From Ceratodon purpureus (Eukaryota; Streptophyta; Bryopsida; Pseudoditrichales; Ditrichaceae): a DNA stretch of 64,000 nucleotides. This document shows positions 48-48,440 of this stretch, one piece after another. Made by a program: the position numbers and the translations under genes. The DNA is taken from positions 6,067,320-6,131,319 of the forward strand of contig CM026424.1 in NCBI GenBank assembly GCA_014871385.1, written 5' to 3'. Positions within the stretch are counted from its first letter, which is position 1; each line of letters begins with the position of its first letter. Under the pieces are notes generated by a model. That model had not been told where the DNA came from and ran no database searches. It saw only the letters and a program-made list of their open reading frames with translations.

Positions 48-602
48 TCAGTGCGGAGCATGAGCTGGAGTAGTGCTAGCAGCACCGTTCTGCTCGCCCT
101 TCTCCTCGTGGGCGATGGCAGCCGGCTGCGACGACGCCCCTCCTCCGATCTCGATGCGGCGCGCCTCCAACTTCTTCTTCTTCTCCACCTTCGGCACCAC
201 CACCGTCAGCACGCCGCTGTCCACCTTCGCCGTGATGTGGTCCAGATCGGCACTCTCCGGGAGCCGGAACTTGCGCATGAAGCTCCCGCTGCTGCGCTCC
301 ACGCGGTGCCAGGTATCCGTCTTCTGCACCTCCTCCTTCTGCCGCTGCCCGCTGATGCTCAGCGTGCGCCCGTCCTCGATCTGCACCCGCACGTCCTCCT
401 TGCGCAGGCCCGGCAGGTCGGCCTTGAACACGTGCTCCGAGGGCGTCTCCTTCCAGTCCACGCTCGTGCTGGCCACGGCGCGCGCGTCGCGAGCGAACGA
501 GGTCGCGGGGGCGTTGTCGAAGAGCGTCACCATCGCCTCCAGGGGGTCGGCCACTGCGTCCCACATGTTGTTCCGGCGCCCGAAGAACGACGAGAGTGCC
601 AT
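48..602 (-). CDS. Class I small heat-shock protein, left copy
   Basis: Encodes 184 residues from the ATG at 602; an upstream frame start at 617 is TTG and was not used. Known role of the family: an ATP-independent cytosolic chaperone that forms oligomers and holds unfolding proteins during heat stress. Seen in sequence: a short N-terminal region starting MALSSFFGRR, an alpha-crystallin domain at about residues 45-140 (VDWKETPSEHVFKADLPGL, then GVLTVVVPK at 130-138), and the C-terminal IXI anchor as I150-E-I152. The tail after IXI (32 residues) is rather long for the class. No intron. The protein is identical to the right copy at 5801-6355. Heat induction is expected from the heat-shock elements at 894-964. 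High GC in the exon contrasts with the AT-rich flanks. Confidence 0.95.
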   Translation of the reverse strand: MALSSFFGRRNNMWDAVADPLEAMVTLFDNAPATSFARDARAVASTSVDWKETPSEHVFKADLPGLRKEDVRVQIEDGRTLSISGQRQKEEVQKTDTWHRVERSSGSFMRKFRLPESADLDHITAKVDSGVLTVVVPKVEKKKKLEARRIEIGGGASSQPAAIAHEEKGEQNGAASTTPAHAPH

Positions 603-848
603 TGTTCGCTGTGACAATAGATGTTTGTCAAATACTACAGCTCAGAATCAGGGACGATCGATACACCGACTCGAGTAGCTATATATGTAGTATGGATTCT
701 AGATAGTCTAATATATGTCAGATCAGTGTGAAGTTGCTCGATGAGAAATCTTGCGAGGTTGGCTTGCGAGAAATTGATAGCGCTCTCTACAGTGTCAGCG
801 ATGAATATTGCTTGCCTGAGATGATGGTGTCGACTGAGGCGAGTGTTG

Positions 849-5554: not shown

Positions 5555-5800
5555 CAACACTCGCCTCAGTCGACACCATCATCTCAGGCAAGCAATATTC
5601 ATCGCTGACACTGTAGAGAGCGCTATCAATTTCTCGCAAGCCAACCTCGCAAGATTTCTCATCGAGCAACTTCACACTGATCTGACATATATTAGACTAT
5701 CTAGAATCCATACTACATATATAGCTACTCGAGTCGGTGTATCGATCGTCCCTGATTCTGAGCTGTAGTATTTGACAAACATCTATTGTCACAGCGAACA

Positions 5801-6355
5801 ATGGCACTCTCGTCGTTCTTCGGGCGCCGGAACAACATGTGGGACGCAGTGGCCGACCCCCTGGAGGCGATGGTGACGCTCTTCGACAACGCCCCCGCGA
5901 CCTCGTTCGCTCGCGACGCGCGCGCCGTGGCCAGCACGAGCGTGGACTGGAAGGAGACGCCCTCGGAGCACGTGTTCAAGGCCGACCTGCCGGGCCTGCG
6001 CAAGGAGGACGTGCGGGTGCAGATCGAGGACGGGCGCACGCTGAGCATCAGCGGGCAGCGGCAGAAGGAGGAGGTGCAGAAGACGGATACCTGGCACCGC
6101 GTGGAGCGCAGCAGCGGGAGCTTCATGCGCAAGTTCCGGCTCCCGGAGAGTGCCGATCTGGACCACATCACGGCGAAGGTGGACAGCGGCGTGCTGACGG
6201 TGGTGGTGCCGAAGGTGGAGAAGAAGAAGAAGTTGGAGGCGCGCCGCATCGAGATCGGAGGAGGAGCGTCGTCGCAGCCGGCTGCCATCGCCCACGAGGA
6301 GAAGGGCGAGCAGAACGGTGCTGCTAGCACTACTCCAGCTCATGCTCCGCACTGA
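5801..6355 (+). CDS. Class I small heat-shock protein, right copy
   Basis: Encodes 184 residues, identical in protein sequence to the left copy; the only coding difference seen is a synonymous glycine codon at 6265. The ATG at 5801 is chosen because the upstream in-frame start at 5786 is TTG and the family begins MALS. The alpha-crystallin domain is at about residues 45-140, with the GVL motif at 130-132 and the IXI motif at 150-152. As in the family, it should act as a cytosolic holdase during heat. It is transcribed away from the palindrome centre, as is its twin, so the two upstream regions face each other across the spacer. No intron is visible. Confidence 0.95.
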   Translation: MALSSFFGRRNNMWDAVADPLEAMVTLFDNAPATSFARDARAVASTSVDWKETPSEHVFKADLPGLRKEDVRVQIEDGRTLSISGQRQKEEVQKTDTWHRVERSSGSFMRKFRLPESADLDHITAKVDSGVLTVVVPKVEKKKKLEARRIEIGGGASSQPAAIAHEEKGEQNGAASTTPAHAPH

Positions 6356-6402: not shown

Positions 6403-7358
6403 TTCACTGCATACCCATGCTGAAAACGAGTCAAGGAGCGTCGACGAGGAAACTATGCACTGCGACCTTGAATCTTGTTCAAATCATTCCAAACTTTCAC
6501 TTGATCGTGATAGGAGGATCACTCTGGACGTGGCCGCGAGCCATGGCACAGTTTTGCGCATTATAGGTGAACGTAGATGGCACAGACGAGCGTGATGTGA
6601 TATATTATTTCCGAGTTAGCGAGACTGCGGAGAAGCTGGGCATGAAGTGTGCCTGGACATATCAATGTACAATTTTGTATTTAACATTTCAGTATAATTC
6701 GAGCGCAGACCCAGTCTGTAATTTAGTGTTGAAATTCATCTTCCTCCGTGATCGATGTTCGACGGTTTTTTGCCATTTGAGTGGTGATCGATGTCTCGAT
6801 TTGAATCCTCACAAGAGTCATGCCATTCCTGAATGGAGTGGTTCAACGTCTAAACGAATATCTGAGTGGATGCTTTGAGGTGGGAGATGGAGGCCTTGCG
6901 ATTCACATTGCCTGCACTAGAACTGCAATTTGTCCAGATTCCCCCAGGTGGCTGAAAGCTGTAAGCTGTGCTGCAAGGTCCAGTTTCGAACGGTTATTCT
7001 TCTGTGATGATGATGCGCGTTTTGAGAGGGCTCGGTACAGTGTATGTCTTCAGGGCAACCGGCCTCAGGATTCAGTGATTCAGTGCTTCCCATGCCACTT
7101 GCTCACTCGGCCTGTACGGCTGCACTGACCTGCTGCCCGGACTCATTGAACCCGGCTCAGATCCATGGCAACCTGTGACCCCCAAGCTGGCATTAATTCC
7201 GGGCGGCAATGTGGGCGCACACTTAATTTCGTGAGCAATTTCGTGGCACCTCGCAGCGCCAAACGGCCTAGACTCTGTGATAGTTCGCTTCACGAGGCTT
7301 TGTAATAGACGAAAATATTCCGGTTTGGTTTTCAATTGGGTCCCTCCGGAGAGGGGGA
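6403..7358. other. Intergenic between sHSP and U2; no gene recognised
   Basis: The start probably holds the sHSP 3' untranslated region. Short open frames at 6567-6878 and 6820-7128 have no recognisable domain and I treat them as chance. Confidence 0.5.
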
Positions 7359-7551
7359 GGGCTGCGCCGGCCAAGGAGGAAGTGCCAGACCAAGGCGACG
7401 CTCGCGGGCCCGGGCAGCAAGCTGCCGGATGGAACCCGCACCCGAGAAAAATTAGATTAATATCATGAGGGACGATGTCCCTCGTATCAGATATTAAACT
7501 GATAAGAACAGATACTACACTTGATCTTAGCCAAAAGGCCGAGAAAGGTAT
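7359..7551 (-). ncRNA. U2: U2 spliceosomal snRNA
   Basis: The minus strand from 7551 begins ATACCTTTCTCGGCCTTTTG, the canonical U2 5' end. It continues with the branch-site recognition region containing GTAGTA and then the conserved stem IIa segment. A uridine-rich Sm-like site (AATTTTTC) follows at about 7445-7452. The 3' hairpins contain GGCAGCTTGCTGCC and CTGGCACTTCCTCC, which align with U2 stem-loops III and IV. Length is about 193 nt, as expected for U2. The 3' end is estimated from the last stem. U2 pairs with the intron branch site in the spliceosome. Confidence 0.96.
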
Positions 7552-8679: not shown

Positions 8680-8838
8680 GAGGGGGCCGCGCGAACGCGA
8701 GCCCCCGCTGCCACAAATTGTGACGTGCATGCCCTCCGTGGAGAGATGCTACAGTCACCCGGCCCGAGGTGCAATGGGGCAGGCTCCTCTAGGCCATCCA
8801 CCTTCCGGATCCTGGATCGACCCCGCCCAGGTAAGTGA
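8680..8838 (-). ncRNA. U1: U1 spliceosomal snRNA, copy 1
   Basis: The minus strand carries ACTTACCTG near its 5' end, the sequence that pairs with 5' splice sites. It is followed by stem-loop 1, the U1A-type loop ATTGCAC in stem-loop 2, the Sm site AATTTGTGG (plus-strand 8711-8719), and a terminal stem-loop with the TTCGCG-type loop. Length of about 158 nt fits U1. The two bases before ACTTACC are TC where U1 usually has AT. The stem-loop 1 loop reads CAGGATCCGG, one base different from copy 2. A matched 3' box and upstream elements suggest a working gene. Confidence 0.93.
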
Positions 8839-8908: not shown

Positions 8909-10011
8909 ACACGCAACATCCAAGCCCCGATCCACAACTAAAAGTAAATGGAAGCACAACTGCAAGCACTAACGATGATGGGAGCAAGCCCAGGGCAACG
9001 CGAACACACACAAACGAAATGTGGCTATGGAATCCCAGGTCTTCCATTGAAGTCCAGAGGTCTGGATTCCAATGTAATCAGTTTCGCCCATTGAACCAAA
9101 AGTGAACCAAGATTGGTTTTGGCATCATAGTACCATACTTCTGTTTAGCATAATTTGTTCGATAAACTAGGACTTCAGGGAAACACGATCGATTGAAGCA
9201 CCATATCATTCTAGACTACACATGGAGGCAGAAGTTCAAGGCTCAATAGTAACAGGAGCCCCAAAGCAACTCACAAGCAAGCCAGACCGTACGTGGTTGG
9301 GTGCATTGCATCCACAAGGACGACGCAGTGAATGATCTCGTACCAGAGATATGACAGTATCCTCACTGATGTACGATCGATTGCAGCGAATTCGACGGTA
9401 CCTACAACTTCACGGCAATGAGAAGGCTCCAAAGACTAAGTAAATTCCAACAAAAGTCGTACGCCAGAACTGCCGACATGACAAAATTCTGTAAGAATCA
9501 CAACCGGCATATAACCCGGAGAAGGACTTCTGAGCGTTGTGATGTGACGAAGCAGCGGAGAAAACCTTCCAAACAGATTCTGGGATTCCGGACAAGGCAC
9601 CTGCCCAAACACAGATACTTCAAATTTTCACAGCTCGACAGTTGAACGCACTTCCCAACACTTCCTCAGAGAAACAAAGCTTTCGAACCAGCGGGCAGGC
9701 TTCGGAGTCATATCTAGTCATTGTCAGCAATCGCTGCTGTGCCAGGCTCGTCCAAAGTCTTGGGGTCAGCTGAGAAGTGGAGAATGCATGCTATCGAGTT
9801 TATGGTTGCAGACGGTTCTCCTTGAGCGGCGCATCACAGACCGTCATTCCACTCTAAGACAAATCCAAATTTTGTGTTGTGTGAAGTGACTTTTAAGGGA
9901 AGCCTGAATCCGAACTTTCACTTGGGTTGAGGCCATTGTGTGGCACTCTCTGTGCACGCAGTCGTTCTGAAATCCTGTTCCTGATGGTTCCAGTTTAGGT
10001 GTTGATTTGGG
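8909..10011. other. Intergenic between U1 copies; no gene recognised
   Basis: Apart from the snRNA units themselves the two flanks do not look alike. Open frames at 9410-9645 have no recognisable domain. Confidence 0.5.
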
Positions 10012-10169
10012 TGGGGGCCGCGCGGACGCGAGCCCCCGCTGCCACAAATTATGACGTGCATGCCCTCCGTGGAGAGATGCTACAGTCACCCGGCCCGAAG
10101 TGCAATGGGGCAGGCTCCTCTAGGCCATCCACCTTCCGGATCATGGATCGACCCCGCCCAGGTAAGTGA
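10012..10169 (-). ncRNA. U1: U1 spliceosomal snRNA, copy 2
   Basis: Same structure as copy 1, offset by 1331 bp, with four substitutions across about 158 nt. The Sm site is at plus-strand 10042-10050 and the ACTTACCTG 5' arm ends at 10167. Stem-loop 1 reads CATGATCCGG, closer to the usual U1-70K binding loop than copy 1. The 5' terminus again has TC instead of AT. The sequence after the terminal hairpin does not give a clean 3' box. Confidence 0.93.
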
Positions 10170-15116: not shown

Positions 15117-17108
15117 CTAGTCAATCTTCACAGAGGAGAAGAGGTAGTGAACGAAGTAGAAAGAGACGAGGAACCCCACAGTGCCGGTGGCGAACATGAT
15201 GGCGGTCACCATGAGCAGCGAGTAGCCAACGTAGAGGGCGGCGGACACCGGCCCACTCAAGCTGTGCAGGTCGAAGACAAGGTAGTTGATTGAGTACAGG
15301 AAGACGTAGAAGGCCACGGATCCGGAGGCGAAGAAAGACTTCCACCACCAGCGGTGATCTTCCACGCACAGGTGCATGTAGGTGAGCACCACAGCGACCT
15401 CAGCGCAGACGATGACGAGCAACACCAGCACGATGAACAGGAAGCCGAACACGTAGTACACCCGGCCCATCCAGATGCTCGACATGATGAAGAACAGCTC
15501 AATGAAGAGGGTACCGAAGGGTAAGGTGCCGGCTCCCAGGACCAGCAGCCATGACGGGTACCGCTGGGGCGGAATTTCGCGAGGGATCTGGTTGGTTCGG
15601 ACGGGGAAGGTGATCGGCTCTGCCTTGGCACCGAGGTAGCCTCCGAAGAGAGTCAAGGGCACCGAAATGGTGAACCAGAGAAGGAGGAGGACGAAGAAGA
15701 GGGAGGCAGGGATGGCGCCCGTGCTGCCCACTGACCACAGAATGCTGTTCAGCACGCAGAGGATGATGAAGACGATCCCAGGGAAGAAACAGGCCGTCTT
15801 CAAAGAGATGGCCTTCCATCCAGATGCATTCCCCCGAATGGTGCACCAGAGGCGGGACGCAACGTAGCCAGCGACGGAGCCCAGGAAGAAATACAACAAC
15901 ACCATGCCTGTGAGCAGCATTCCTCGTGACGCAGGGGACATGAAGCCCAGGGCGGCGCAGAAGATCGTCACGACGGCCATGGCCAAGATCTGAACTCCAT
16001 CTCCGACCGTAATGCAGAGAAGTTGGGGGCTCTCAGGCGCGCGGAACACGTCGCCCACAACCAACTTCCACCCAGACAGCTCCTCAGTCATCTGAGACTG
16101 CGATTCCTTGTCGAGTTCCTCGTACTTGGTCAAGTCCCTCCGCACCGTTCTCAGGAAGATCACGAACACGATACCGGCGAGGAACGTGATGACCATGAGG
16201 GAATTCAAGATCGAAAACCAGTGCACGCGAGTCCCCTCCATCTTAAGGTACGAATCCCACCTGCTCGGCCATCGGATGGTGCTATTCTCGAAAACCACAT
16301 CGTAGGAGAAGACGAGTTGCTCCCCGACCTTGATTGTCTGGTGAGCACCATCCGGGCTGCACGTGACAGCCTCCAAAGTCCCGTAATCCTCAACTTTATC
16401 AGCGGCCTTGACATCACGGACGACACTGCAAGGTACTACCTCGAACCCGACCACCATGTTGGTCCCTGTGAGGTTCTTCTCCTTGCCCGAGGGCATGGCA
16501 TCCAGCCCATCCCCAGTGCTCAACATGGCCACCATCGAGGTCTCCCCCTCGTACGGGTGGATGAGCACCTTGAAGCTCAAATGGTTGTAAATATAATGCT
16601 CCTTGCTCCCGTCAAGCTTGAACCCGATGGGCGACCCCGTCCACCGCAGCGGCACCGGCGAGTCCCGCTGCTTCGTGTAGCGCGTCACCGGCAGGTTGTC
16701 CAGCATGAGATTCACCTGGTAGAAGTCGTCGATCCTCTGCGAGAAATGCTTCACGTCCTTCTCCGTCAGGGGCTCCGTGACGCACAGCTTCACATTCATC
16801 TTGTCCTCCCGCATCCTGAACTTGTAGGGCGAATTCTCTATCTCGTCACCCATCAGCAGCTCCCCAATGTTCTCCGCCACCTTCTTGATGCCGTCCTTGG
16901 GCCGGCAGAACGGCAGGCTGTAGTACGAATACGGCAACTCCGTCTCTATCGACGTGATCGAGTTCACCTTCACTCCCAGCTCATTCCCATCTTGATACGG
17001 ATGCAAGTAGCTCCCCGGCAGATAAAACCCCTCCACAATTGCCCACATTTGGACTACCATCATCCAGCACATCACCCCCACTCCCCATCCCCCCCGCGCA
17101 GTCGCCAT
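15117..17108 (-). CDS. TM9/nonaspanin family membrane protein, first paralogue
   Basis: Intronless coding region for 663 residues from the ATG at 17108; the upstream in-frame start at 17117 is GTG. A signal peptide (about 1-27) precedes the mature end FYLPGSYLHPY, typical of the family. The lumenal domain runs to about residue 297 and is followed by nine hydrophobic segments, the first containing WFSILNSLMVITFLAGIVF. The C-terminus SSVKID carries the KXD/E COPI signal that keeps plant TM9 proteins in the Golgi. Family members act in endomembrane sorting and trafficking of transmembrane cargo. This gene is clearly diverged from the two near-identical TM9 genes at 34184 and 46365, so it is the older paralogue. 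Confidence 0.96.
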   Translation of the reverse strand: MATARGGWGVGVMCWMMVVQMWAIVEGFYLPGSYLHPYQDGNELGVKVNSITSIETELPYSYYSLPFCRPKDGIKKVAENIGELLMGDEIENSPYKFRMREDKMNVKLCVTEPLTEKDVKHFSQRIDDFYQVNLMLDNLPVTRYTKQRDSPVPLRWTGSPIGFKLDGSKEHYIYNHLSFKVLIHPYEGETSMVAMLSTGDGLDAMPSGKEKNLTGTNMVVGFEVVPCSVVRDVKAADKVEDYGTLEAVTCSPDGAHQTIKVGEQLVFSYDVVFENSTIRWPSRWDSYLKMEGTRVHWFSILNSLMVITFLAGIVFVIFLRTVRRDLTKYEELDKESQSQMTEELSGWKLVVGDVFRAPESPQLLCITVGDGVQILAMAVVTIFCAALGFMSPASRGMLLTGMVLLYFFLGSVAGYVASRLWCTIRGNASGWKAISLKTACFFPGIVFIILCVLNSILWSVGSTGAIPASLFFVLLLLWFTISVPLTLFGGYLGAKAEPITFPVRTNQIPREIPPQRYPSWLLVLGAGTLPFGTLFIELFFIMSSIWMGRVYYVFGFLFIVLVLLVIVCAEVAVVLTYMHLCVEDHRWWWKSFFASGSVAFYVFLYSINYLVFDLHSLSGPVSAALYVGYSLLMVTAIMFATGTVGFLVSFYFVHYLFSSVKID

Positions 17109-17660
17109 CGCGCTCACTAACCCTCACAACCCCCGCTCTCAAACCTCTCCCAACCCACACATCACCAAGATAACCTCACCTTCATCAAAACCATCCCTCC
17201 CTCTCCCTCGCCACACACCACCATCACCTGCAACCCCATCACCCCACTACTCAGATCTACAGCCACCACCCAACCCTAAGCACACAATTCAACCATCACT
17301 CCCACCGTCCCCAGGTTAACCCTCCCTCCACTTCCCATCACCAAAACACACTCACAAAACCAAACAAACACACCAAAATTCAACCACAACAGACACTCGA
17401 AGCCCAAAAGTCTTAACTTTCCTCCACCACCAAGATGCCCAAACACACACACACACACACCAAAAAATGCAAAACCAAGGAACAAAGCCTAAGTGGTACC
17501 TCACCTAAGCACAGAATTTCACCAAAGATCTCCCCAACAGAAAAACTCAAAAACACACACACACACACTCACCTACATGTTTCACCCACACTCCATTCCC
17601 AAGACAGAGAGAAAATCACATCAAAATGCATGCAAGAAGGAGAGTGATGACTCACCTGTG
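17109..17660 (-). promoter_or_regulatory. 5' leader region of TM9 gene with CA repeats and a likely leader intron
   Basis: A strong donor, CACAG|GTGAGTC on the minus strand at 17655/17654, and possible acceptors near 17233 (TTGCAG) or 17113 suggest an intron in the leader. Two short CA/TG microsatellites lie at about 17442-17461 and 17552-17569. The region is rich in C on the plus strand. Confidence 0.45.
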
Positions 17661-29134: not shown

Positions 29135-31423
29135 TCTCACAAGTATCCTGTCTGCTCAGAATTTATTTTCTCAGTGTGGATGCAGGAGCTTACTGTTCCG
29201 ATGAATATAGGTCCGGATGCTATTAAAGTAATACTTATTGTTTCGTTTGCTGTGGGCTACTTCATTGTGTTCCAGCGAGCTCATTCTTCGTTATTCTTTA
29301 TCACAAGATTAGTCCATTAAAAAATGTCAGCCTCGTATCTTTCGTCTTCTGTGTGATTCAATTGTTGGGGCTATTGTTTTTATAACCTTGAGAGGTCGTC
29401 CATTCACAGATGCTGTCCATTTTCAGAAATCTAGGTCGAATGCCATAGAAGTGGCTATATATTTTGTGACTGGAAGTCGGTTCATATGCTCAGCGATCAG
29501 TACTCTAATAATTCACTCATTGCATGTATTTGTGTTACGAAACGGGACACCTTGCTCCAAATTTCAAGCTTGCTTTTGGCTCGTTGTGTCCGATCGAAAC
29601 TCACCCTTGCAATAAAAATACATGTTGCACTGGAGTCAATTGTTTCGTGCAGTTCGAAATCGCGTCCCTTAATTACGGTACTGAGCTGGTAAGCGTACAG
29701 AAAGAATCGAAAGTGGCATAATTAATGATGTTTCAAATTTGTGCCTAGGTTTCTTTTCAGCAATATGAACTATCGCTCTAGTCTGAAATTGTAGACAAGG
29801 GAGGCCATATTGTAACTTGCCAAGGGTAAATGAGTGCAATGGATATGGATATGTCAAGACTCAAGGGAAGTAGGGTATGAACTACTCCCCTTGTAATGCT
29901 CCTCGTGCCAAATGGCCGCAATCAAGCATCTCCTCATTGTTTGTAGTCAAATGAACCTCGTTTTTGACATAAATAGGTAGGTTCAGCCAAGGTGCTACAA
30001 ACGCAGTGTCCATCTCCTGTGGATTACCAGGAATTATACCGTATTCAACTGGATCGTTTGCCAGCAGAAGCACTTGGGTGAATACGGAAAGGTGGTCATG
30101 GCTAAGTACTTACCTCAGTGCTTCCAAATCACTGTATGGGCTAAGGTTACAGGGAGCGGAACAAAAGATTTGGATTTACGTGTGTGGCCACAGCAAGGTT
30201 TGATGCAAAATTCCCGAATTAGGGAAAGTACATAATTTTTGATACTCTAAGCAACAAATTACATTGTAAAGATATCAGATTTTAATATTCAATCCAAACT
30301 TGAGAACATATTTTTGCACTTCAAATTATTGTTTTGTGAATTCTAGAAGTTTAAATCTCTAGAGTTTCATTTGAAATAACAGACCAACCCATTCGAGTTC
30401 CCATTCTATCTATAAATATTACATAGAAAATGCATAAACATGGTAAATATTTAATTATTTCATAACTACCAGAGAACCTCGATTGAAGTAAAGGAAGTGG
30501 ACGGTTGGACAGTTGGACTTGGCAAAATGCCATTTAGACATGGGGAAAGTGTGGGTCTCCGAAAATGGTCACTACAGTGTAACTGCACCTCACAAAACCC
30601 AGCTAGCAATGGGCAGGGGGAGGAAGAAGTGGCGGTAAAGTGAACCGAATTGCTCAGGGTGAGTCCTCTCGGACCCACAAGCTTCCACTTTGGGGTAGCC
30701 ATTGCTGCATATTCTGCACCACTTGTCTTTACAATGCCTTTCCTCAACAGACTCAGGGATTCCGCCATGATTCTGGCCGGGTTCAGCATCCAACACTCAA
30801 CCAGGTCACACCACTTTTCGAATCCTTCAACAAAGGTTTGTGCACTTCGTGTAATGAACTACAAACACGATGAGCTATATGACGTTTTTCGGTGGAAGCT
30901 TACTCCCGCACTTACGTCCTGGCGAGGGCTCCGGTTTGACATGTACAGTTGCTCCTTTTTCAATTGAGTACCGCTCTTTCCAATGAAAGAGAATTACAAT
31001 GACGTAGTTTATTTGTAGCTCCACAGCTAAGTTGACCAGTGCTATGTTGAGCTCTATCAAGGTAGCTGTGTTTAGTTTCTGTCGTTGTCCACTAGCTTCT
31101 GTCCGATCCACGCAGCAGTGGCAGTCCAACTTGTCGTTGTTGTTGCTGTTTAGAACTCACAACCATGGGTTGAGGAGATGTTTGCATGTTTACATTTCAA
31201 GAGTGCTTCACTGTTTGTTCATGTACGTTGATTGTGAGCAATCCACCTAGAGTAGCTTGTGAGCACGGCTAGTTTGTGTAGAAGGTTAGTACTAGTTTGT
31301 GAGCAAACCGCGGACTGGTAAATTTGCTAGTTTGCGAAACGTCCAGTTTGCTTAGCGTGGCAATGGCCATGAAGATAGGGAACAGAGTGATGTCTGCTTG
31401 CGTCTAACCCTATTAAGTCAGAG
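29135..31423. other. Intergenic between thioredoxin and lectin-TIR; no confident gene
   Basis: Begins with the thioredoxin 3' untranslated region. A minus-strand frame at 30466-30834 contains LNPARIMAESLSLLRKGIVK and a tidy basic stretch, but the opposite strand is equally open. I cannot assign it, so it is not called. Confidence 0.4.
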
Positions 31424-31430
31424 TTTATAA
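31424..31430 (+). promoter_or_regulatory. TATA-like box of lectin-TIR gene
   Basis: TTTATAA, about 120 bases before the start codon at 31551, places transcription start near 31455-31460 with a short leader. Confidence 0.45.
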
Positions 31431-31550
31431 GCAGCACCTAATTGACTGTGTACACCGCTAATGAGTGGGTGTTCTATGCATTCTCAGTACTGTTGAACAT
31501 GCCAGGAGCTTTGATGTAGTTATCGCCAGGAGGTCAGTTTATCCAAGACA

Positions 31551-33104
31551 ATGGCTTCGTATTATCACCTTATTCAAAGTACTGGTCTGCTTCTTGCGGT
31601 CCAGATTATCCTTGGCACTGATCTCCTTGTTCAAGCTGGGAGCACCGACTTCAAGTTCTTGTCTTTCAACACAAGAGATCGAGACAGTTTCTTGATGGTC
31701 AACGATGTCCAACATGATGCAGCTTCTTCTTCATTCTTAATGAACCCGTCTGGAGTTACGAGGGGAGCGAGACTGTTGTACAACAAGCAAGTGAGGATGA
31801 AAGACTCAGCATCTGGGGCAGTTGCTTCTTTCCATACCGCCTTCACTTTCGAAATCACTGGTCCGGACAATGGTACGGAGAATGGACACATAGTAAACGG
31901 GGATGGGCTGGCTTTCACATTTGCTAGGTATAGCAATTTCTCGGACGAAAGCGCGGGTTATTCGCTATGCCTTGTTAATTCTATCCACAATGGTATGGCT
32001 TCCAATCGTGTCTTTGCCGTCGAGTTTGACACCTTCTACAATGACATGTTCAACTGGCTGAACGAACCCAGTGACAGCCATATCGCCGTCGACATCAACA
32101 GCGTCAACTCCATAACGTCTTATAACCTGTGCAGGTTGAGCGCAAACAGAACATACTGCAGGTACCTCTGCAACGGTGGCAATTTCACAGCTTGGATTGA
32201 TTATGACAGTGCATCGGGGTTTCTTTTAGTTTTCTTTACCAATGGGTCCTTGAATGACATTAGCATGACTAAACCGACAACACCAGTGATCCAGGTTAAT
32301 CTAAGTTCTCAGGAACCCGGATTCGTCCCATTAGCCCAACTTGTAGACGACTACATGTATGTCGGGTTCAGTTCAAGCACCGGAATCTACACTGAGTTGA
32401 ACCATATCAAGGCTTGGATGTTCAGTACAAGCTTTGAGCCGGGAAATATTCAGGTGACGCAGATTGTGATCGGAGGTAGCGTTGCAGGTACTGTAGCCTT
32501 GGTTGCCATTGTGGTGCTTTCAATATGTTGGTGGAAATATAGGCACCCTCTACGTATATTTGTTTCCCATACAGGTGGAGAGAAAGGAGAGAAGAAAAAC
32601 TTCCCAATCCACCTCTCCAACGCCCTGACATCAAGTTGGAGATTGAAGAATCGTTTCAGAGTTTTTATTGATCGTAAGCACCTGAGAAGGGGTACGCCAT
32701 TTCCGGATGAAATTCAACGAGAACTAGCAAGAGTCGACTTGGGGATTGTGGTTGTAACTCGAGAATTTTTTGAAGGAAAATGGCCTATGATGGAGTTGGC
32801 AGAGATGGTGAAACTGCAATTTAATGAACCTGCAAGAGTGCGAATACTACCCTTGTTCTACACCCTTAAACCGGGTGAAATCAGGAGTCTTCTGACGGAT
32901 GGAATGTTGCAAGCAAAGTGGGCGAAGATGGCTACTGCAAATCATCCCATTGACGTGCAATGTTATGAAGATGCAGTGGAGAAACTTTGCATAGAAAATG
33001 GTGTTGAATATAATTACAGCGACCTCAGTCATGAAGAGGAGTATATAGACGAGATCTTGAAAGAGGTAAGTAGGATGTATCGTGAAATGCGGAAGAAACC
33101 ATAG
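31551..33104 (+). CDS. Legume-type lectin / transmembrane / TIR-domain receptor-like protein
   Basis: Intronless, 517 residues. A signal peptide (about 1-29) precedes an L-type lectin domain (about 31-294). The metal-binding strand VEFDTFYN and DSHIAVDINS keep the usual ligands E158, D160, N164, D175 and H177, and the sugar-site aspartate lies in GDGLAFTF (D118). Several NxS/T sites suggest glycosylation. A hydrophobic helix at about 304-328 is followed by basic residues. A TIR domain (about 333-505) starts LRIFVSHTGGE, has FIDRKHLRRG near the BB loop, and WPMMELAEM, where E415 aligns with the catalytic glutamate of NAD-cleaving TIRs. The order resembles a lectin receptor kinase with TIR in place of the kinase. 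I infer a plasma-membrane sensor of carbohydrate signals with NADase output. No frame break is seen. Confidence 0.92.
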   Translation: MASYYHLIQSTGLLLAVQIILGTDLLVQAGSTDFKFLSFNTRDRDSFLMVNDVQHDAASSSFLMNPSGVTRGARLLYNKQVRMKDSASGAVASFHTAFTFEITGPDNGTENGHIVNGDGLAFTFARYSNFSDESAGYSLCLVNSIHNGMASNRVFAVEFDTFYNDMFNWLNEPSDSHIAVDINSVNSITSYNLCRLSANRTYCRYLCNGGNFTAWIDYDSASGFLLVFFTNGSLNDISMTKPTTPVIQVNLSSQEPGFVPLAQLVDDYMYVGFSSSTGIYTELNHIKAWMFSTSFEPGNIQVTQIVIGGSVAGTVALVAIVVLSICWWKYRHPLRIFVSHTGGEKGEKKNFPIHLSNALTSSWRLKNRFRVFIDRKHLRRGTPFPDEIQRELARVDLGIVVVTREFFEGKWPMMELAEMVKLQFNEPARVRILPLFYTLKPGEIRSLLTDGMLQAKWAKMATANHPIDVQCYEDAVEKLCIENGVEYNYSDLSHEEEYIDEILKEVSRMYREMRKKP

Positions 33105-34099
33105 CGATTGGGACTTAGAGTGTACTGCATGAATTTTGAAAGGAAGCACTTCCTTGATAGCCAGCCTAGTAGATGCTTCAGATTTTGGTGCATGCGCATA
33201 CATGAATTTTGAAATTTAAGCAAACAAGACTGGACAAAGTTATTTGAATCATACTGTAACCATTCTGGAACTCTTGTAATTGTAGCGGTTAATACATTCT
33301 TAGCATGGCAAGTTGCTCATTCTGCAGAGCTGTGGGGTTCCTACAATATGTGACTATTTGGAGGAAAAATCCAGTAATATTCCATTTTGTGTGTTGCAAT
33401 TAAGAGAAGAGCAAGTTGCAATTTGCTGAGGTTAAAAAGTGGAGAGGATTGTACATTTGTCATGTCTTGTCTAGAATTCAAGGACAAGAAAACATACATC
33501 TACCATACTAGTGTAAGGGCACACTGAAAAACATAATGAAAGAGAGCACCCACTAATCTCAATACATCACCCAGTCTATCCTTCTCGTTATTACAGAGGT
33601 TTCGGACCTCTGTAACATGGTAGTCTGATTCGAAATACACCCTCTATTTAACTTTCTATTTAGCCGTGAAAAACTTAGAAAAAAAGCTCACATGCAAGAT
33701 AAAGAACCTACAAAAACTGTGGGAGAGACGGGTAGGGACAGGGTCTCAAAAAAAGTGTACATGGTAGTGTCAACTTTAACAAACGTCGTGTGACTGTTGT
33801 TGCACCTTGTCACATGTAAGTCACTAACATCTGTAATCAATGTTCAAGGAAACGTAGACATTAGATATATGCATTCCCCTCCCTACAGTCCAACCTCGAC
33901 ATCTGTTACCCTTATAGAGCATAAATGTGATGAATCCGTAAAGGCCGATTGCGATATTTATAAGTTAATCTCTTAAATAGAATGTAAAAATGTCTACAGC
34001 CCACTCTACTCATCATGCACTACAGTCTCTGCTAATTGATGAGACATTCTAACTAATTCTAGTAAATATAAATTGAAATAAAAATTACAATAAAATCTA
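33105..34099. other. Intergenic between lectin-TIR and TM9; no gene recognised
   Basis: AT-rich, with the lectin-TIR 3' untranslated region at the left. Nothing else called. Confidence 0.5.
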
Positions 34100-36356
34100 A
34101 CAAAAAAACTACCTCAGTAGTACAGTGACCCTAAATCGCTAAGGAAAACACGTTCCAACAGCCAACCATAACCACTTACTTCCTTAGTCGATCTTCACAG
34201 ACGAAAACAGATAGTGCACGAAGTAGAACGACGTCAGGAACCCCACGGTGCCCGTCGCGAACATGATCGCAATCACCATCAGCAGAGAGTATCCCACGTA
34301 CAAAGCGGCGGACACCGGTCCGCTCAGGCTGTGCAGGTCGAACACCAGATAGTTGATCGAGTACAGGAATACATACAGCGCCACCGACCCCGACGCGAAG
34401 AACGACTTCCACCACCATCGATGATCCTCCACGCACAGGTGCATGTATGTCAGCACCACCGCCACCTCCGCGCACACGATGATCAGCAGGATGAACACCA
34501 CGAACAAAAACCCGAACACGTAGTACACCCGCCCCATCCAGATGCTCGACATGATGAAGAACAGCTCGATGAACAGCGTCCCGAAGGGCAGCGTCCCTGC
34601 GCCCAGCACCAGCAGCCATGACGGGTACCGCTGCGCCGGAATCTCGCGAGGAATCTGGTTCGTTCGCACCGGGAACGTGATCGGCTCTGCCTTCGCACCC
34701 AGGTACGCTCCCAGAAGGGTCAGCGGCACCGAAACCGTGAACCACAGCGTCAGCAGGATGAAGTACAGGGACAGCGGGATGGCACCCGTGCTCTCCCGCG
34801 ACCACAGCAGGAAGTTCAGCACCGTCAGAATCGTGAATGCGATTCCGGGGAAGAAGCACGCCGTCTTCCATGCAATGGGCCTCCACCCGCTCTGGGTCCC
34901 CTTCAGCGTGCACCACAGCCGGGACGACACATATCCCGCCAGGATTCCCAAGAACAGATACAACAACACCATTCCCGTCAACAGCATTCCTCGCGACGCC
35001 GGAGACATGAATCCCAGAGCTGCGAACAGGATCGTCACGCATGCCATGCCCAGGATCTGCACCCCGTCGCCCACCACCACGCACAGCAGCTGCGGGTTCT
35101 CGGGTGCGCGGAACACATCCCCCACCACCAACTTCCATCCCGACAGCTCCTCGTTCATCTGCGCCTGGGCCTCCTTGTCCAGCTCCTCGTACTTCGTCAA
35201 ATCCCTCCGCACCGTCCTCAAGAAAATCACAAACACGATTCCCGCCAGGAACGAGATCACCATCAGCGAGTTCAGGATCGAGAACCAGTGCACGCGCGCG
35301 CCCTCCATCTTCAGATACGCGTCCCATCTGCTCGGCCAACGGATGTCGCTCTCCTCAAAATGCACACTGTACGAGTAAACGATCTCCTCGCCCTTCTTCA
35401 CTGCCTGATGAGGCTTCTCAGGGTCGCAGTCCGAGATGGGCAGCTGGCCATTCCCATCCTCCAGCTCCTTCGCCACCTTCACATCCCTCACCACGCTACA
35501 CGGCACCACCTCGAATCCCACCACCATGAACGTCCCCGTCAGATTCTGCGTCGTCGCAGAGGGCATCACATCCAAACCCTCCCCAGTTCCCAGCACAGCC
35601 CCCGACCCCGCATCCTTGTCATACGCGTGCACCAGCACCTTGAACTTCAGATGATTATACACATAATGCTGCTTGTCACTGTCCAGCTTGAACCCTATCG
35701 GCGACCCCGTCCATCGCAACAGATTGCTCGAGTCCTTCTGCCGCGTATACCTCGACACCGGCAGATTATCCAATATCATATTCACCTGGTAGTAGTCATC
35801 AATCCGCCTGTTAAAGTGGTTCACATCACTCTCCGACAGCGGAGGTGCCACACATACCTTCACATCCTCCTGATCCTCCTTCATCGAAAACTTATACGGC
35901 GAATTCTCGATCTGGTCCCCCATCAGCAGCTCCCCGATGTTCTCCCCCATCTTCTGAATCCCTTCCTTGGGCTTGCAAAACGGCAAGCTGTAATACGAAA
36001 ACGGAAGCTCAGTCTCAATCGACGTGATCGAGTTCACCTTCACCTCCAGCTTCGCCCCTTTCTTGTAGGGATGTAGGTACGTCCCGGGTAGATAAAACCC
36101 CTCCACGGCCGAGCTGCACAGCAGAACGAAACACAACATGGACGCCACTCGCCATGAGCTAGGGTTAGAAGTCGCCATGGCCGATTGTGGCCCATACCGC
36201 ACCATATTGGGCGCCGTTTTGGTCAGCAGAACGGCGTGGGAGAGAGTTAGGAGGTGGTCGGAGGGAGTGCGGGGAGAGACGGGAGGTGCGCGGGGCGATC
36301 CCTGCGAGGGAGAGGTGGGAGGCGATCCCCGAGGGCGCAGAGGTGAGGGCGATGGT
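34100..36356. repeat. Inverted TM9 duplication, left block
   Basis: The block pairs with 46187-48440 in reverse orientation. It includes the TM9 coding region, about 180 bases of leader before the ATG and about 80 bases after the stop. Identity in the coding region is very high except in one patch near 35800-35842. Outer limits are approximate. Confidence 0.85.
34184..36178 (-). CDS. TM9/nonaspanin family membrane protein, second paralogue
   Basis: Intronless, 664 residues from the ATG at 36178, chosen because a signal peptide (about 1-27) follows at once and is succeeded by FYLPGTYLHPY as in other TM9 proteins. Nine membrane segments follow the lumenal domain, ending in SSVKID with the KXD/E COPI and Golgi-retention motif. 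It differs from the copy at 46365 at only five residues: 116, 117, 120 and 124, clustered in the lumenal domain, and 213. The frame stays open upstream to an ATG at 36805 through the minisatellite, giving a possible 873-residue product. I reject this as the main start because it would bury the signal peptide. Confidence 0.96.
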   Translation of the reverse strand: MATSNPSSWRVASMLCFVLLCSSAVEGFYLPGTYLHPYKKGAKLEVKVNSITSIETELPFSYYSLPFCKPKEGIQKMGENIGELLMGDQIENSPYKFSMKEDQEDVKVCVAPPLSESDVNHFNRRIDDYYQVNMILDNLPVSRYTRQKDSSNLLRWTGSPIGFKLDSDKQHYVYNHLKFKVLVHAYDKDAGSGAVLGTGEGLDVMPSATTQNLTGTFMVVGFEVVPCSVVRDVKVAKELEDGNGQLPISDCDPEKPHQAVKKGEEIVYSYSVHFEESDIRWPSRWDAYLKMEGARVHWFSILNSLMVISFLAGIVFVIFLRTVRRDLTKYEELDKEAQAQMNEELSGWKLVVGDVFRAPENPQLLCVVVGDGVQILGMACVTILFAALGFMSPASRGMLLTGMVLLYLFLGILAGYVSSRLWCTLKGTQSGWRPIAWKTACFFPGIAFTILTVLNFLLWSRESTGAIPLSLYFILLTLWFTVSVPLTLLGAYLGAKAEPITFPVRTNQIPREIPAQRYPSWLLVLGAGTLPFGTLFIELFFIMSSIWMGRVYYVFGFLFVVFILLIIVCAEVAVVLTYMHLCVEDHRWWWKSFFASGSVALYVFLYSINYLVFDLHSLSGPVSAALYVGYSLLMVIAIMFATGTVGFLTSFYFVHYLFSSVKID

Positions 36357-36392
36357 GCGAGAGAGTCGACTCTGAGCAACTCGAGTTCCTCA

Positions 36393-36735
36393 TCGAGGTG
36401 ATGGTTGAGGTGCTCGTTGAGGTGCTGATTGAGGTGGTGGTTGAGGAGCTGGTTGAGGTGTTGGTCGAGGTGTTGGTTGAGGTGCTGGTTGAGGTGCTGG
36501 TTGAGGTGCTGGTTGAGGTGCTGGTTGAGGTGCTGGTTGAGGTGCTGGTTGAGGTGTTGGTTGAGGTGCTGGTTGAGGTGTTGGTTGAGGTGCTGGTTGA
36601 GGTGTTGGTTGAGGTGCTGGTTGAGTTGTTTGCTGAGGTGATGGTTGAGGTGCTCGTTGAGGTGCTGATTGAGGTGGTGGTCGAGGAGCTGGTTGAGGTG
36701 TTGGTCGAGGTGTTGGTTGAGGTGTTGGTCCAGGT
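36393..36735. repeat. 12-bp minisatellite upstream of second TM9 gene
   Basis: About 28 copies of GGTTGAGGTGCT with minor variants. A higher-order structure is visible: 36401-36480 and 36641-36720 match over 80 bases with one difference, 240 bp (20 units) apart. The unit length keeps the TM9 reading frame open, coding for LNQH repeats on the minus strand and VEVL on the plus strand. The inverted twin gene lacks it. Confidence 0.95.
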
Positions 36736-36809
36736 TCGGATCGAGGGATGGGATTGGCATTTGGATTTTTTTTATTTTTTTATTTTTTAAACAAAGGAGA
36801 GGCATTTGG

Positions 36810-45570: not shown

Positions 45571-46186
45571 TCCAAGGTGTTTTGGCACCTCCAAAACCGA
45601 AAACTGCAGATTTTGACCATCTTATGGAAATTGATGAATGTTTCCAATAAAATTTGCTTTTCTGGTATTTCCAACCATAAGATCTTCAACCTAACTACTT
45701 TCACTAACACCTTATCAAATTTCAACCGTTGGATCTTGACCATTTGTGAAATTATAACAATCGAAGTTTACTATTTTTTTTTTTTTGGCTTTGTCGGAAA
45801 GGCATAGTCTAAATGGTGCCAAGGGAGACTTGATGATTGTTACCCTAAACAATTTGTCAATTTTTTCATCCGATTGTCATCCGACTGAAACTCGTAAGAA
45901 TATTACACATGACTGTAGAAAAACCGATGTACGACGGTAGTCGACTCACCGGACCAGATGACCGAGCCAATCCTAGGACGGGCAAAGGGCAGGGACTGAG
46001 GCCAGGCCTGACAACAGGCGGGCAGTTAGCTAAAAACACAAACAAAAAACTTCCAAAACATGAGGAACGGATATCAACCGAACTCAACATCCCCAGAACC
46101 CAAATGCCAAGCCCTCGATCCCCGCCTCAATCAAGACCTCCATGGGGAGCTCCTCACGTAGCCCCAGCTGCCACAACGTCGTCTCC
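45571..46186. other. Upstream flank of third TM9 gene
   Basis: AT-rich to about 45900, then GC-richer. An open frame from 45909 runs into TM9 but has no domain of its own; treated as promoter and leader. Confidence 0.45.
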
Positions 46187-48440
46187 GTGCCATCGCCTCC
46201 CCTCTGCGCCTCGGGGATCGTCTCTCACCTCCCCCTCTCAGGGATCGCCTCGCACACCTCCCGTCTCTCCCCGCACTCCCTCCGACCACCTTCTAGCTCA
46301 CTTCCACGCCGTTCTGCTGACCAAAACGGCGCCCAAAACGGTGCGGTCTGGGCCACAATCGGCCATGGCGACTTCTAACCCTAGCTCATGGCGAGTGGCG
46401 TCCATGTTGTGTTTTGTTCTGCTGTGCAGCTCGGCCGTGGAGGGGTTTTATCTACCCGGGACGTACCTACATCCCTACAAGAAAGGGGCGAAGCTGGAGG
46501 TGAAGGTGAACTCGATCACGTCGATTGAGACTGAGCTTCCGTTTTCGTATTACAGCTTGCCGTTTTGCAAGCCCAAGGAAGGGATTCAGAAGATGGGGGA
46601 GAACATTGGGGAGCTGCTGATGGGGGACCAGATCGAGAATTCGCCGTATAAGTTTTCGATGAAGGAGGATCAGGAGGATGTGAAGGTATGTGTGGCCCCT
46701 CCACTGTCGGACAAGGATGTGAAGCATTTTAATAAGCGGATTGATGACTACTACCAGGTGAATATGATATTGGATAACCTGCCGGTGTCGAGGTATACGC
46801 GGCAGAAGGACTCGAGCAATCTGTTGCGATGGACGGGGTCGCCGATAGGGTTCAAGCTGGACAGTGACAAGCAGCATTATGTGTATAATCATCTGAAGTT
46901 CAAGGTGCTGGTGCACGCGTATGACAAGGATGCGGGGTCGGGGGCTGTGCTGGGAACTGGGGAGGGTTTGGATGTGATGCCCTCTGCGACGACACAGAAT
47001 ATGACGGGGACGTTCATGGTGGTGGGATTCGAGGTGGTGCCTTGCAGCGTTGTGAGGGATGTGAAGGTGGCGAAGGAGCTGGAGGATGGGAATGGCCAGC
47101 TGCCCATCTCGGACTGCGACCCTGAGAAGCCTCATCAGGCTGTGAAGAAGGGCGAGGAGATCGTGTACTCGTACAGTGTGCATTTTGAGGAAAGCGACAT
47201 CCGTTGGCCGAGCAGATGGGACGCGTATCTGAAGATGGAGGGCGCGCGCGTGCACTGGTTCTCGATCCTGAACTCGCTGATGGTGATCTCGTTCCTGGCG
47301 GGAATCGTGTTTGTGATTTTCTTGAGGACGGTGCGGAGGGATTTGACGAAGTACGAGGAGCTGGACAAGGAGGCCCAGGCGCAGATGAACGAGGAGCTGT
47401 CGGGATGGAAGTTGGTGGTGGGGGATGTGTTCCGCGCACCCGAGAACCCTCAGCTGCTGTGCGTAGTGGTGGGCGACGGGGTGCAGATCCTGGGCATGGC
47501 ATGCGTGACGATCCTGTTCGCAGCTCTGGGATTCATGTCTCCGGCGTCGCGAGGAATGCTGTTGACGGGAATGGTGTTGTTGTATCTGTTCTTGGGAATC
47601 CTGGCGGGATATGTGTCGTCCCGGCTGTGGTGCACGCTGAAGGGGACCCAGAGCGGGTGGAGGCCCATTGCATGGAAGACGGCGTGCTTCTTCCCCGGAA
47701 TCGCATTCACGATTCTGACGGTGCTGAACTTCCTGCTCTGGTCGCGGGAGAGCACGGGTGCCATCCCGCTGTCCCTGTACTTCATCCTGCTGACGCTATG
47801 GTTCACGGTTTCGGTGCCGCTGACCCTTCTGGGAGCGTACCTGGGTGCGAAGGCAGAGCCGATCACGTTCCCGGTGCGAACGAACCAGATTCCTCGCGAG
47901 ATTCCGGCGCAGCGGTACCCGTCATGGCTGCTGGTGCTGGGCGCAGGGACGCTGCCATTCGGGACGCTGTTCATCGAGCTGTTCTTCATCATGTCGAGCA
48001 TCTGGATGGGGCGGGTGTACTACGTGTTCGGGTTTTTGTTCGTGGTGTTCATCCTGCTGATCATCGTGTGCGCGGAGGTGGCGGTGGTGCTGACATACAT
48101 GCACCTGTGCGTGGAGGATCATCGATGGTGGTGGAAGTCGTTCTTCGCGTCGGGGTCGGTGGCGCTGTATGTATTCCTGTACTCGATCAACTATCTGGTG
48201 TTCGACCTGCACAGCCTGAGCGGACCGGTGTCCGCCGCTTTGTACGTGGGATACTCTCTGCTGATGGTGATTGCGATCATGTTCGCGACGGGCACCGTGG
48301 GGTTCCTGACGTCGTTCTACTTCGTGCATTATCTGTTTTCGTCTGTGAAGATTGACTAGGGAAGTGGTTATGGTAGTCTGTTTGAACGTTCTTTCCTTAA
48401 CGATGTAGGCTCATGGTATTCCTTCTTGAGGTAGTTTTTA
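46187..48440. repeat. Inverted TM9 duplication, right block
   Basis: Partner of 34100-36356. Homology starts in the leader near CCATCGCCTCCCCTCTGCGC and continues past the stop to the GAGGTAG near 48435. The upstream minisatellite is absent. Confidence 0.85.
46365..48359 (+). CDS. TM9/nonaspanin family membrane protein, third paralogue
   Basis: Intronless, 664 residues, same start context (GGCC ATGG) and same signal peptide as the copy at 34184. Lumenal domain, nine hydrophobic segments and the C-terminal SSVKID signal are all present. Its residues 115-125 read SDKDVKHFNKR, which is closer to the older paralogue at 15117 (TEKDVKHFSQR) than to its near-identical twin (SESDVNHFNRR). As for the family, it should work in Golgi and endosome membranes. 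The in-frame open stretch upstream to an ATG at 45909 is judged to be leader, because a signal peptide begins at 46365. Confidence 0.96.
   Translation: MATSNPSSWRVASMLCFVLLCSSAVEGFYLPGTYLHPYKKGAKLEVKVNSITSIETELPFSYYSLPFCKPKEGIQKMGENIGELLMGDQIENSPYKFSMKEDQEDVKVCVAPPLSDKDVKHFNKRIDDYYQVNMILDNLPVSRYTRQKDSSNLLRWTGSPIGFKLDSDKQHYVYNHLKFKVLVHAYDKDAGSGAVLGTGEGLDVMPSATTQNMTGTFMVVGFEVVPCSVVRDVKVAKELEDGNGQLPISDCDPEKPHQAVKKGEEIVYSYSVHFEESDIRWPSRWDAYLKMEGARVHWFSILNSLMVISFLAGIVFVIFLRTVRRDLTKYEELDKEAQAQMNEELSGWKLVVGDVFRAPENPQLLCVVVGDGVQILGMACVTILFAALGFMSPASRGMLLTGMVLLYLFLGILAGYVSSRLWCTLKGTQSGWRPIAWKTACFFPGIAFTILTVLNFLLWSRESTGAIPLSLYFILLTLWFTVSVPLTLLGAYLGAKAEPITFPVRTNQIPREIPAQRYPSWLLVLGAGTLPFGTLFIELFFIMSSIWMGRVYYVFGFLFVVFILLIIVCAEVAVVLTYMHLCVEDHRWWWKSFFASGSVALYVFLYSINYLVFDLHSLSGPVSAALYVGYSLLMVIAIMFATGTVGFLTSFYFVHYLFSSVKID

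Follow-up and report, generated by a model that had tools for sequence, protein, structure and literature searches.

Immunity at the plant cell surface is seen as relying on kinases, and TIR signalling in plants as taking place inside the cell. The L-type lectin receptor kinases (LecRKs) of land plants have a signal peptide, a legume lectin domain, a single helix, and a cytoplasmic kinase. The animal Toll-like receptors (TLRs), which recruit MyD88 by TIR contact, have an LRR sensor outside, one helix, and a TIR domain inside. A TIR and a lectin domain also occur together in one plant protein in the TIR-Nictaba (PP2-A5 type) family of Arabidopsis, where the TIR is N-terminal and the lectin part is a Nictaba/PP2 domain, according to the available text of PMC12355970. 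The part of PMC5485960 at hand tabulates four TIR-Nictaba genes in Arabidopsis and none in four other genomes, and that of PMC6272470 reports one soybean protein with the order GNA-S-locus-PAN-TIR-NB-ARC-LRR. In these texts, as far as available, neither TIR-Nictaba nor the soybean fusion is described as having the lectin outside, a helix, and the TIR inside.

The window analysed here is a stretch of 64,000 nucleotides of the Ceratodon purpureus genome (C4:6067320-6131319); the genome examined has 362,488,568 bases in 151 contigs, with 12 contigs of 16-29 Mb among those listed. It was found that one intronless frame of the window, 31551-33104 (+), starts with ATG, stays open up to a TAG, and encodes 517 amino acids (517 codons and a stop in the ORF listing), and that the region 31001-34000 has no N letters. 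The original prediction was that this intact frame joins a signal peptide, an L-type lectin, a single helix, and a TIR domain. All four were recovered, the signal peptide and the helix as hydropathy predictions. The N-terminus is hydrophobic with a peak at residues 12-30, and the predicted signal peptide covers about residues 1-30 (31551..31640, +). The legume lectin domain lies at residues 32-298 (31644..32444, +; Pfam PF00139, Lectin_legB, E = 6.7e-45, 154 bits with a cut-off of 26.3). One strongly hydrophobic helix at residues 305-323 (Kyte-Doolittle maximum 2.58) is followed on the inner side by the basic flank CWWKYRH, the two together spanning residues 305-328 (32463..32534, +). The TIR domain occupies residues 333-514 (32547..33092, +); Pfam PF01582 matches residues 345-514 (E = 1.1e-10, 42.1 bits, cut-off 21.3), and TIR_2 also matches above its cut-off (39.3 bits, cut-off 28). 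Of the N-glycosylation sequons, six fall within residues 1-300 and one lies beyond. With the signal peptide and topology both taken from hydropathy, the protein would fit a type I membrane protein whose lectin is outside and whose TIR starts about 10 residues below the membrane. The Pfam scan of the protein gave no kinase, no NB-ARC, and no LRR; the protein stops three residues past the TIR match, and the ORF listing has no + strand ORF of at least 60 amino acids between 33105 and 34213. A donor-like GAG|GTAAGT lies at 33063-33071, in the final codons of the gene, so an alternative C-terminus by splicing is possible.

The window also holds other features. Three similar intronless frames lie around the lectin-TIR gene, at 15117-17117 (-), 34184-36805 (-), and 45909-48359 (+). 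The first of them matches EMP70/nonaspanin (6.4e-183), and the second starts with a long HLNQ repeat, probably non-coding. Two 189-residue frames of the same sequence form an inverted pair about 5 kb apart, at 48-617 (-) and 5786-6355 (+), and the former matches HSP20 (1.7e-28). A spliceosomal RNA cluster at 7357-7551, 8680-8838, and 10011-10169 (-) consists of one U2 gene and two U1 genes.

The best PDB match of the lectin half, among legume lectins, is 3ujo (9e-16), which I take to be the lectin DLL-II. The loop Asp of the GDGLAF motif, presumably a sugar-contact residue in legume lectins, is kept as D118. For DLL-II, the available text of PMC12355970 gives the metal ligands as Glu146, Asp148, Phe150, Asn152, Asp156, and His161. 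Downstream of D118, the 3ujo alignment places the corresponding site of the window lectin at E158, D160, F162, N164, E172, and H177 (32022..32081, +). Thus, relative to the full ligand set of E, D, F/Y, N, D, and H, only the second Asp is changed, being replaced by E172. Five metal ligands had been predicted, of which E158, D160, N164, and H177 hold in this alignment. The fifth, D175, does not: it lies opposite a non-ligand Glu of 3ujo, and the ligand Asp of 3ujo lies opposite E172. One metal ligand therefore appears to carry a conservative D-to-E change.

Is this architecture unique to the window? The genome has 84 Lectin_legB match rows; its TIR matches number at least 150, with 150 scored out of 285 candidates. 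Lectin matches were examined with their flanks at 48 places, namely 30 loci with flanks of 1.5 kb each and 18 new places. A TIR tail behind the lectin was found at four of them: the window gene (C4:6.10M, + in the window, single frame), L029/L040 (C7:2.79M), L021/L039 (C2:11.92M), and L045 (C4:12.95M; C4:12946000-12952500). L029/L040 has a putative 95-base GT-AG phase-1 intron between lectin and helix, as judged by eye, L021/L039 has two putative introns, and L045 is one frame of 595 residues from the first Met. Both the lectin and the TIR of the three paralogues are above the Pfam cut-offs. Of the remaining 44 places, 31 show a kinase match that was ascribed to the lectin's own gene, and at 13 a kinase match is either absent or remote (L015, L017, L035, L047, L048, L049, L051, L052, L053, and L055-L058). 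Thirty-one of the 84 Lectin_legB rows fall outside the flank reading; 29 of these are in frames of 664-845 residues, which is LecRK size, and two are in frames of 81 and 189 residues. A genome search with the window protein (84 matches; 83 of 349 candidates scored) returned the same four genes and one helix-TIR relic, L062 (C2:20685827-20686456), with two in-frame stops and a Lys at the position of the catalytic Glu. By eye, no further TIR lies within 5 kb downstream of a same-strand lectin among the matches listed.

The surroundings of the relic are of interest in themselves. As judged by eye, L062 (C2:20685600-20688600) lies just downstream of a Copia-type reverse transcriptase/RNase H-like frame, and a divergent lectin, L035 (C2:20695107-20695799), is located about 9 kb upstream of L062 on the same strand. 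Possibly, L062 and L035 are the two pieces of a further, fifth lectin-TIR gene into which a retrotransposon has inserted. Elsewhere in the assembly, the LecRK genes L010 (C2:24.58M, on a contig the size of a chromosome) and L011 (on the 46-kb contig C47) have identical lectin and kinase rows, and may reflect a duplicate that the assembly left unplaced.

The paralogues also differ in their sensors. The L045 lectin lacks the metal-site residues (VFAVKFGSQRN and DPSDGTIG), and its helix and TIR are intact. Since the metal site is lost there, metal-dependent sugar binding would not be common to the whole lectin-TIR family. The same loss was observed in L047. Judging from these residues, the ligand of heads of the L045/L047 type is probably not a sugar bound through a metal.

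The two parts of the window gene were compared with those of L040 by the NG86 method. The lectin part gave dN 0.376, dS 0.892, and dN/dS 0.42, and the TIR part gave dN 0.355, dS 0.937, and dN/dS 0.38. The equal synonymous distance indicates that lectin and TIR were duplicated together and that the fusion is older than the duplication separating these two genes, and a dN/dS of about 0.4 indicates that both parts are constrained. The same values bear on whether the gene is real. That two adjacent genes were merged by annotation or assembly, or that the locus is a pseudogene, is hardly credible in view of this constraint on both domains, the gapless open frame of 517 codons, and the single frame of L045. 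An assembly join, which had been named as a possible refutation, and a chance ORF were rejected by the three paralogues with the same domain order elsewhere in the genome and by the E-values.

From where did the TIR tail come? TIR trees were built with 29 rows, or 28 rows without the relic L062. With or without the relic, the four tails form one clade (100/100), which is nested in a group of TIRs with a KWPM.EL motif, distant from the TNL-type TIRs L001-L008. Five TIR-NB-ARC genes (L059-L061, L080, and L081; the last two are the same as L068 and L069) share this TIR group, the motif, and the catalytic-type Glu with the lectin-TIR genes. An NB-ARC exon above the Pfam cut-off follows the TIR in L060, L080, and L081, the match in L059 scores 17.0, below the cut-off of 23.5, and L061 has a P-loop motif after the TIR, by eye. 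Unlike the lectin-TIR genes, these genes have an NB-ARC after the TIR and no lectin or helix before it in the stretches examined. Upstream of the TIR, L080 (C4:8507600-8511000) has a ZZ-type zinc finger (Pfam ZZ, 25.1 bits), as does L081 (C3:8574800-8578600) by eye.

The heads were placed in a lectin tree of 47 rows, from 44 of the 48 places (L055-L058 gave none) and L063-L065, and in a tree of 35 rows that omits 12 long- or remote-branch rows (L015, L032, L035, L037, L038, L042, and L048-L053). The two trees agree on the placing of the four heads. The window head and L040 group together (98/89 in 47 rows; 93/91 in 35 rows) within a LecRK clade of 14 rows (95/90; 95/93). The L039 head groups with the LecRKs L025/L026 (100/99; 100/98). 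The L045 head groups with L047 (96/95; 98/95) inside the L063-L065 clade (99/97; 100/100). In approximately unbiased (AU) tests, one clade for all four heads was rejected (p = 5.7e-43), as were the clades of window, L040, and L039 (p = 4.9e-4) and of window, L040, and L045 (p = 2.8e-36). Thus, a single old lectin-TIR family with both parts vertically inherited is rejected by the lectin AU test, and the lectin tree demands at least three tail changes. As for labels, the '_kin' of L064 and L065 stands for open frames of 712 and 727 residues and not for a kinase match, and the kinase of L063 was checked. L047 has no kinase of its own within about 2.5-3 kb downstream and is better termed lectin-TM despite its '_kin' label.

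A kinase tree of 25 rows, excluding kinases split by introns and with L064 and L065 not among the rows, recovered the 14-row clade in its 12 kinase members, as well as L025/L026 as a pair and L043/L044/L054, and placed L063 outside the kinases of the 14-row clade. Where the kinase and lectin trees are comparable they match, so that head and tail of the LecRKs have shared one history, from which the TIR-tailed genes depart. The tails form a single clade and the heads are spread over three LecRK clades, so that sensors of three LecRK lineages carry the same kind of TIR tail. This most informative point was not noticed in the earlier reading, and it amounts to a natural experiment in receptor rewiring. 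A single fusion together with two exchanges of heads could account for this pattern, as could repeated joining or gene conversion. In the simplest history, an NB-ARC-type TIR would have been fused to the end of a lectin-helix of LecRK type, and the sensors would have been exchanged, or the tail rejoined, at least two times more. The opposite direction may also apply, in which old lectin-TIRs gained kinase tails more than once. The placing of the heads gives each lectin-TIR some LecRK relatives with a similar sensor, which fits the idea that the protein is a decoy or competitor, modulating kinase LecRKs by hetero-dimerising or ligand capture with the TIR as a secondary output. This idea is improbable, because it does not need a conserved TIR, yet the TIR and the lectin are about equally constrained.

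The tail itself was examined by a PDB search with the TIR part alone, which listed 23 sequences with an E-value of at most 1. The top matches are a flax rust resistance protein (7vu8, 1.1e-9) and flax L6 (3ozi, 3.8e-9), followed by AtTIR, Roq1, bacterial TIRs, RPS4, RPP1, RUN1, and others, with one unrelated acyltransferase. No Toll-like receptor is found by name among the 23 sequences. Matches to Thoeris ThcB4 (NCBIfam, 35.7 bits versus 220) and retron-TIR (26.8 versus 600), and the PADLOC matches to PDC-S66 (1.2e-10) and ThsB (4e-4 and 0.007), were set aside as reflecting the general TIR fold only. In the WPMME motif (W411 to E415; 32781..32795, +), E415 aligns with the Glu of L6 (KWCLMELAEIV) and that of Roq1. 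Position 411 is Trp in 22 of the 29 aligned TIRs of the genome. The prediction of E415 as a catalytic-type glutamate agrees with this alignment; position 415 is Glu in 28 of the 29, the lone exception being the Lys of the relic, and the Glu is kept in all four lectin-TIR genes. On the other hand, the Arg after the first TIR strand, which I take to be an NAD-pocket residue of RUN1, is present in the three TNL-type TIRs compared and is replaced by T, T, A, and A in the four lectin-TIRs (Thr341 in the window protein). It is also Ser or Ala in five other KWPM-type TIRs compared. Because this residue is absent in all four, NADase activity of the lectin-TIRs is not assured. Some TIRs are not enzymes. 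As far as residues can tell, the Glu speaks for a TIR enzyme and the missing Arg is a caution. In the available text of PMC11218826, the catalytic Glu is required for cell death by fern and gymnosperm TIRs.

If the tail is not an enzyme, it may be a scaffold that recruits TIR proteins, e.g. the TIR-NB-ARC proteins, by TIR-TIR contact, with E415 being structural. The TLR-like layout, the abundance of TIRs in the genome as possible partners, and the replaced Arg would agree with this. However, the contrast between the Glu of all four intact tails and the Lys of the decayed relic fits a working catalytic residue, as does the Glu in nearly all aligned TIRs, so that a scaffold is unlikely, though less so than a decoy. 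I rather consider it probable that the protein is a type I receptor whose TIR enzyme is switched on when a ligand clusters the lectin. I infer the surface location, the clustering, the enzyme activity, and an immune role. An extracellular legume-type lectin would be connected by one helix to a TIR about 10 residues below the plasma membrane. Legume lectins are natural dimers. A ligand, in the simplest case a glycan, would dimerise or cluster the lectin ectodomain, and the short linker would pass the clustering on to the TIR domains. Their association would form an active site that cleaves NAD or carries out a related nucleotide reaction, and neither a kinase nor an NB-ARC would stand between sensor and enzyme. 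Association of plant TIRs is described as forming the active site in the available texts of PMC9806590 and PMC7282519.

What may lie downstream? The available text of PMC10834447 gives seed plants as the only reported source of EDS1 family proteins, so the signalling would have to bypass EDS1. The EDS1_EP profile has no match in the genome, in a search without a positive control signal. EDS1-free TIR signalling does exist in plants, because a maize TNP kills tobacco cells without EDS1, as stated in the accessible part of PMC9806590. The RPW8 profile has 11 matches in the genome, nine of them above the cut-off, so helper-like NLR parts do occur in this plant. The receptor repertoire of C. purpureus exceeds 315 in the text of PMC11218826, as far as available. 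Taken further, mosses might have evolved their own Toll-like receptors, in which a lectin sensor at the cell surface acts directly on a TIR enzyme, with no need of a kinase, an NB-ARC, or EDS1, and which were re-armed by repeated sensor exchange with LecRKs. This wider proposal is tentative, and I rate its chances slightly below even.

No plant lectin-helix-TIR receptor was found in searches of open-licence PMC papers, which is in line with the original remark that no characterised plant protein of this architecture was known; domain-architecture databases may list it uncommented. The available main text of PMC6362431 contains no word beginning with TIR or Toll. The available text of PMC10834447 defines receptor-like proteins (RLPs) as having one or two helices without a kinase, and the lectin-TIR genes would probably be counted as RLPs without notice under this definition. 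L-lectin RLPs have a lectin, a helix, and a short tail without a kinase, whereas the lectin-TIRs have a complete TIR in place of that tail. On this evidence, the lectin-TM-TIR architecture is real and repeated, and undescribed as far as the searches of open-licence PMC papers show, combining a LecRK-type sensor with a TIR of the NB-ARC-gene type.

Compared with the L-type LecRKs, the window protein is alike in the predicted signal peptide, the legume lectin, and the predicted single helix, and its lectin reaches 58% identity with lectins from genes of this genome that carry a kinase. It differs in having a TIR where the kinase would be. Compared with the TLRs, the order of sensor, helix, and TIR is the same, the sidedness being predicted from hydropathy, the basic flank, and the sequons, whereas the sensor is a lectin and not LRRs. 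The predicted parallel with TLRs therefore holds as an architecture, which is repeated in four genes. Descent from TLRs is not supported, as the TIR is of the plant type in the PDB search and in the genome TIR tree, which is without TLR rows. The nearest relatives of the window TIR are plant TIRs in the PDB search and NB-ARC-linked TIRs in the tree, which holds TIRs of this genome only. Because the TIR matches plant and bacterial TIRs and the NB-ARC-linked TIRs of the genome, the likeness to TLRs looks convergent. If true, the Toll-like layout would have arisen independently in plants, as these comparisons suggest. A plant TIR directly behind a surface sensor would then join both layers of immunity in one molecule, and it would offer a simple system for the role of TIR products in plants without EDS1. 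On paper the lectin-TIR protein would work like a TLR; its parts, however, set it apart from the TLRs and its tail from the LecRKs, and it is no TNL either.
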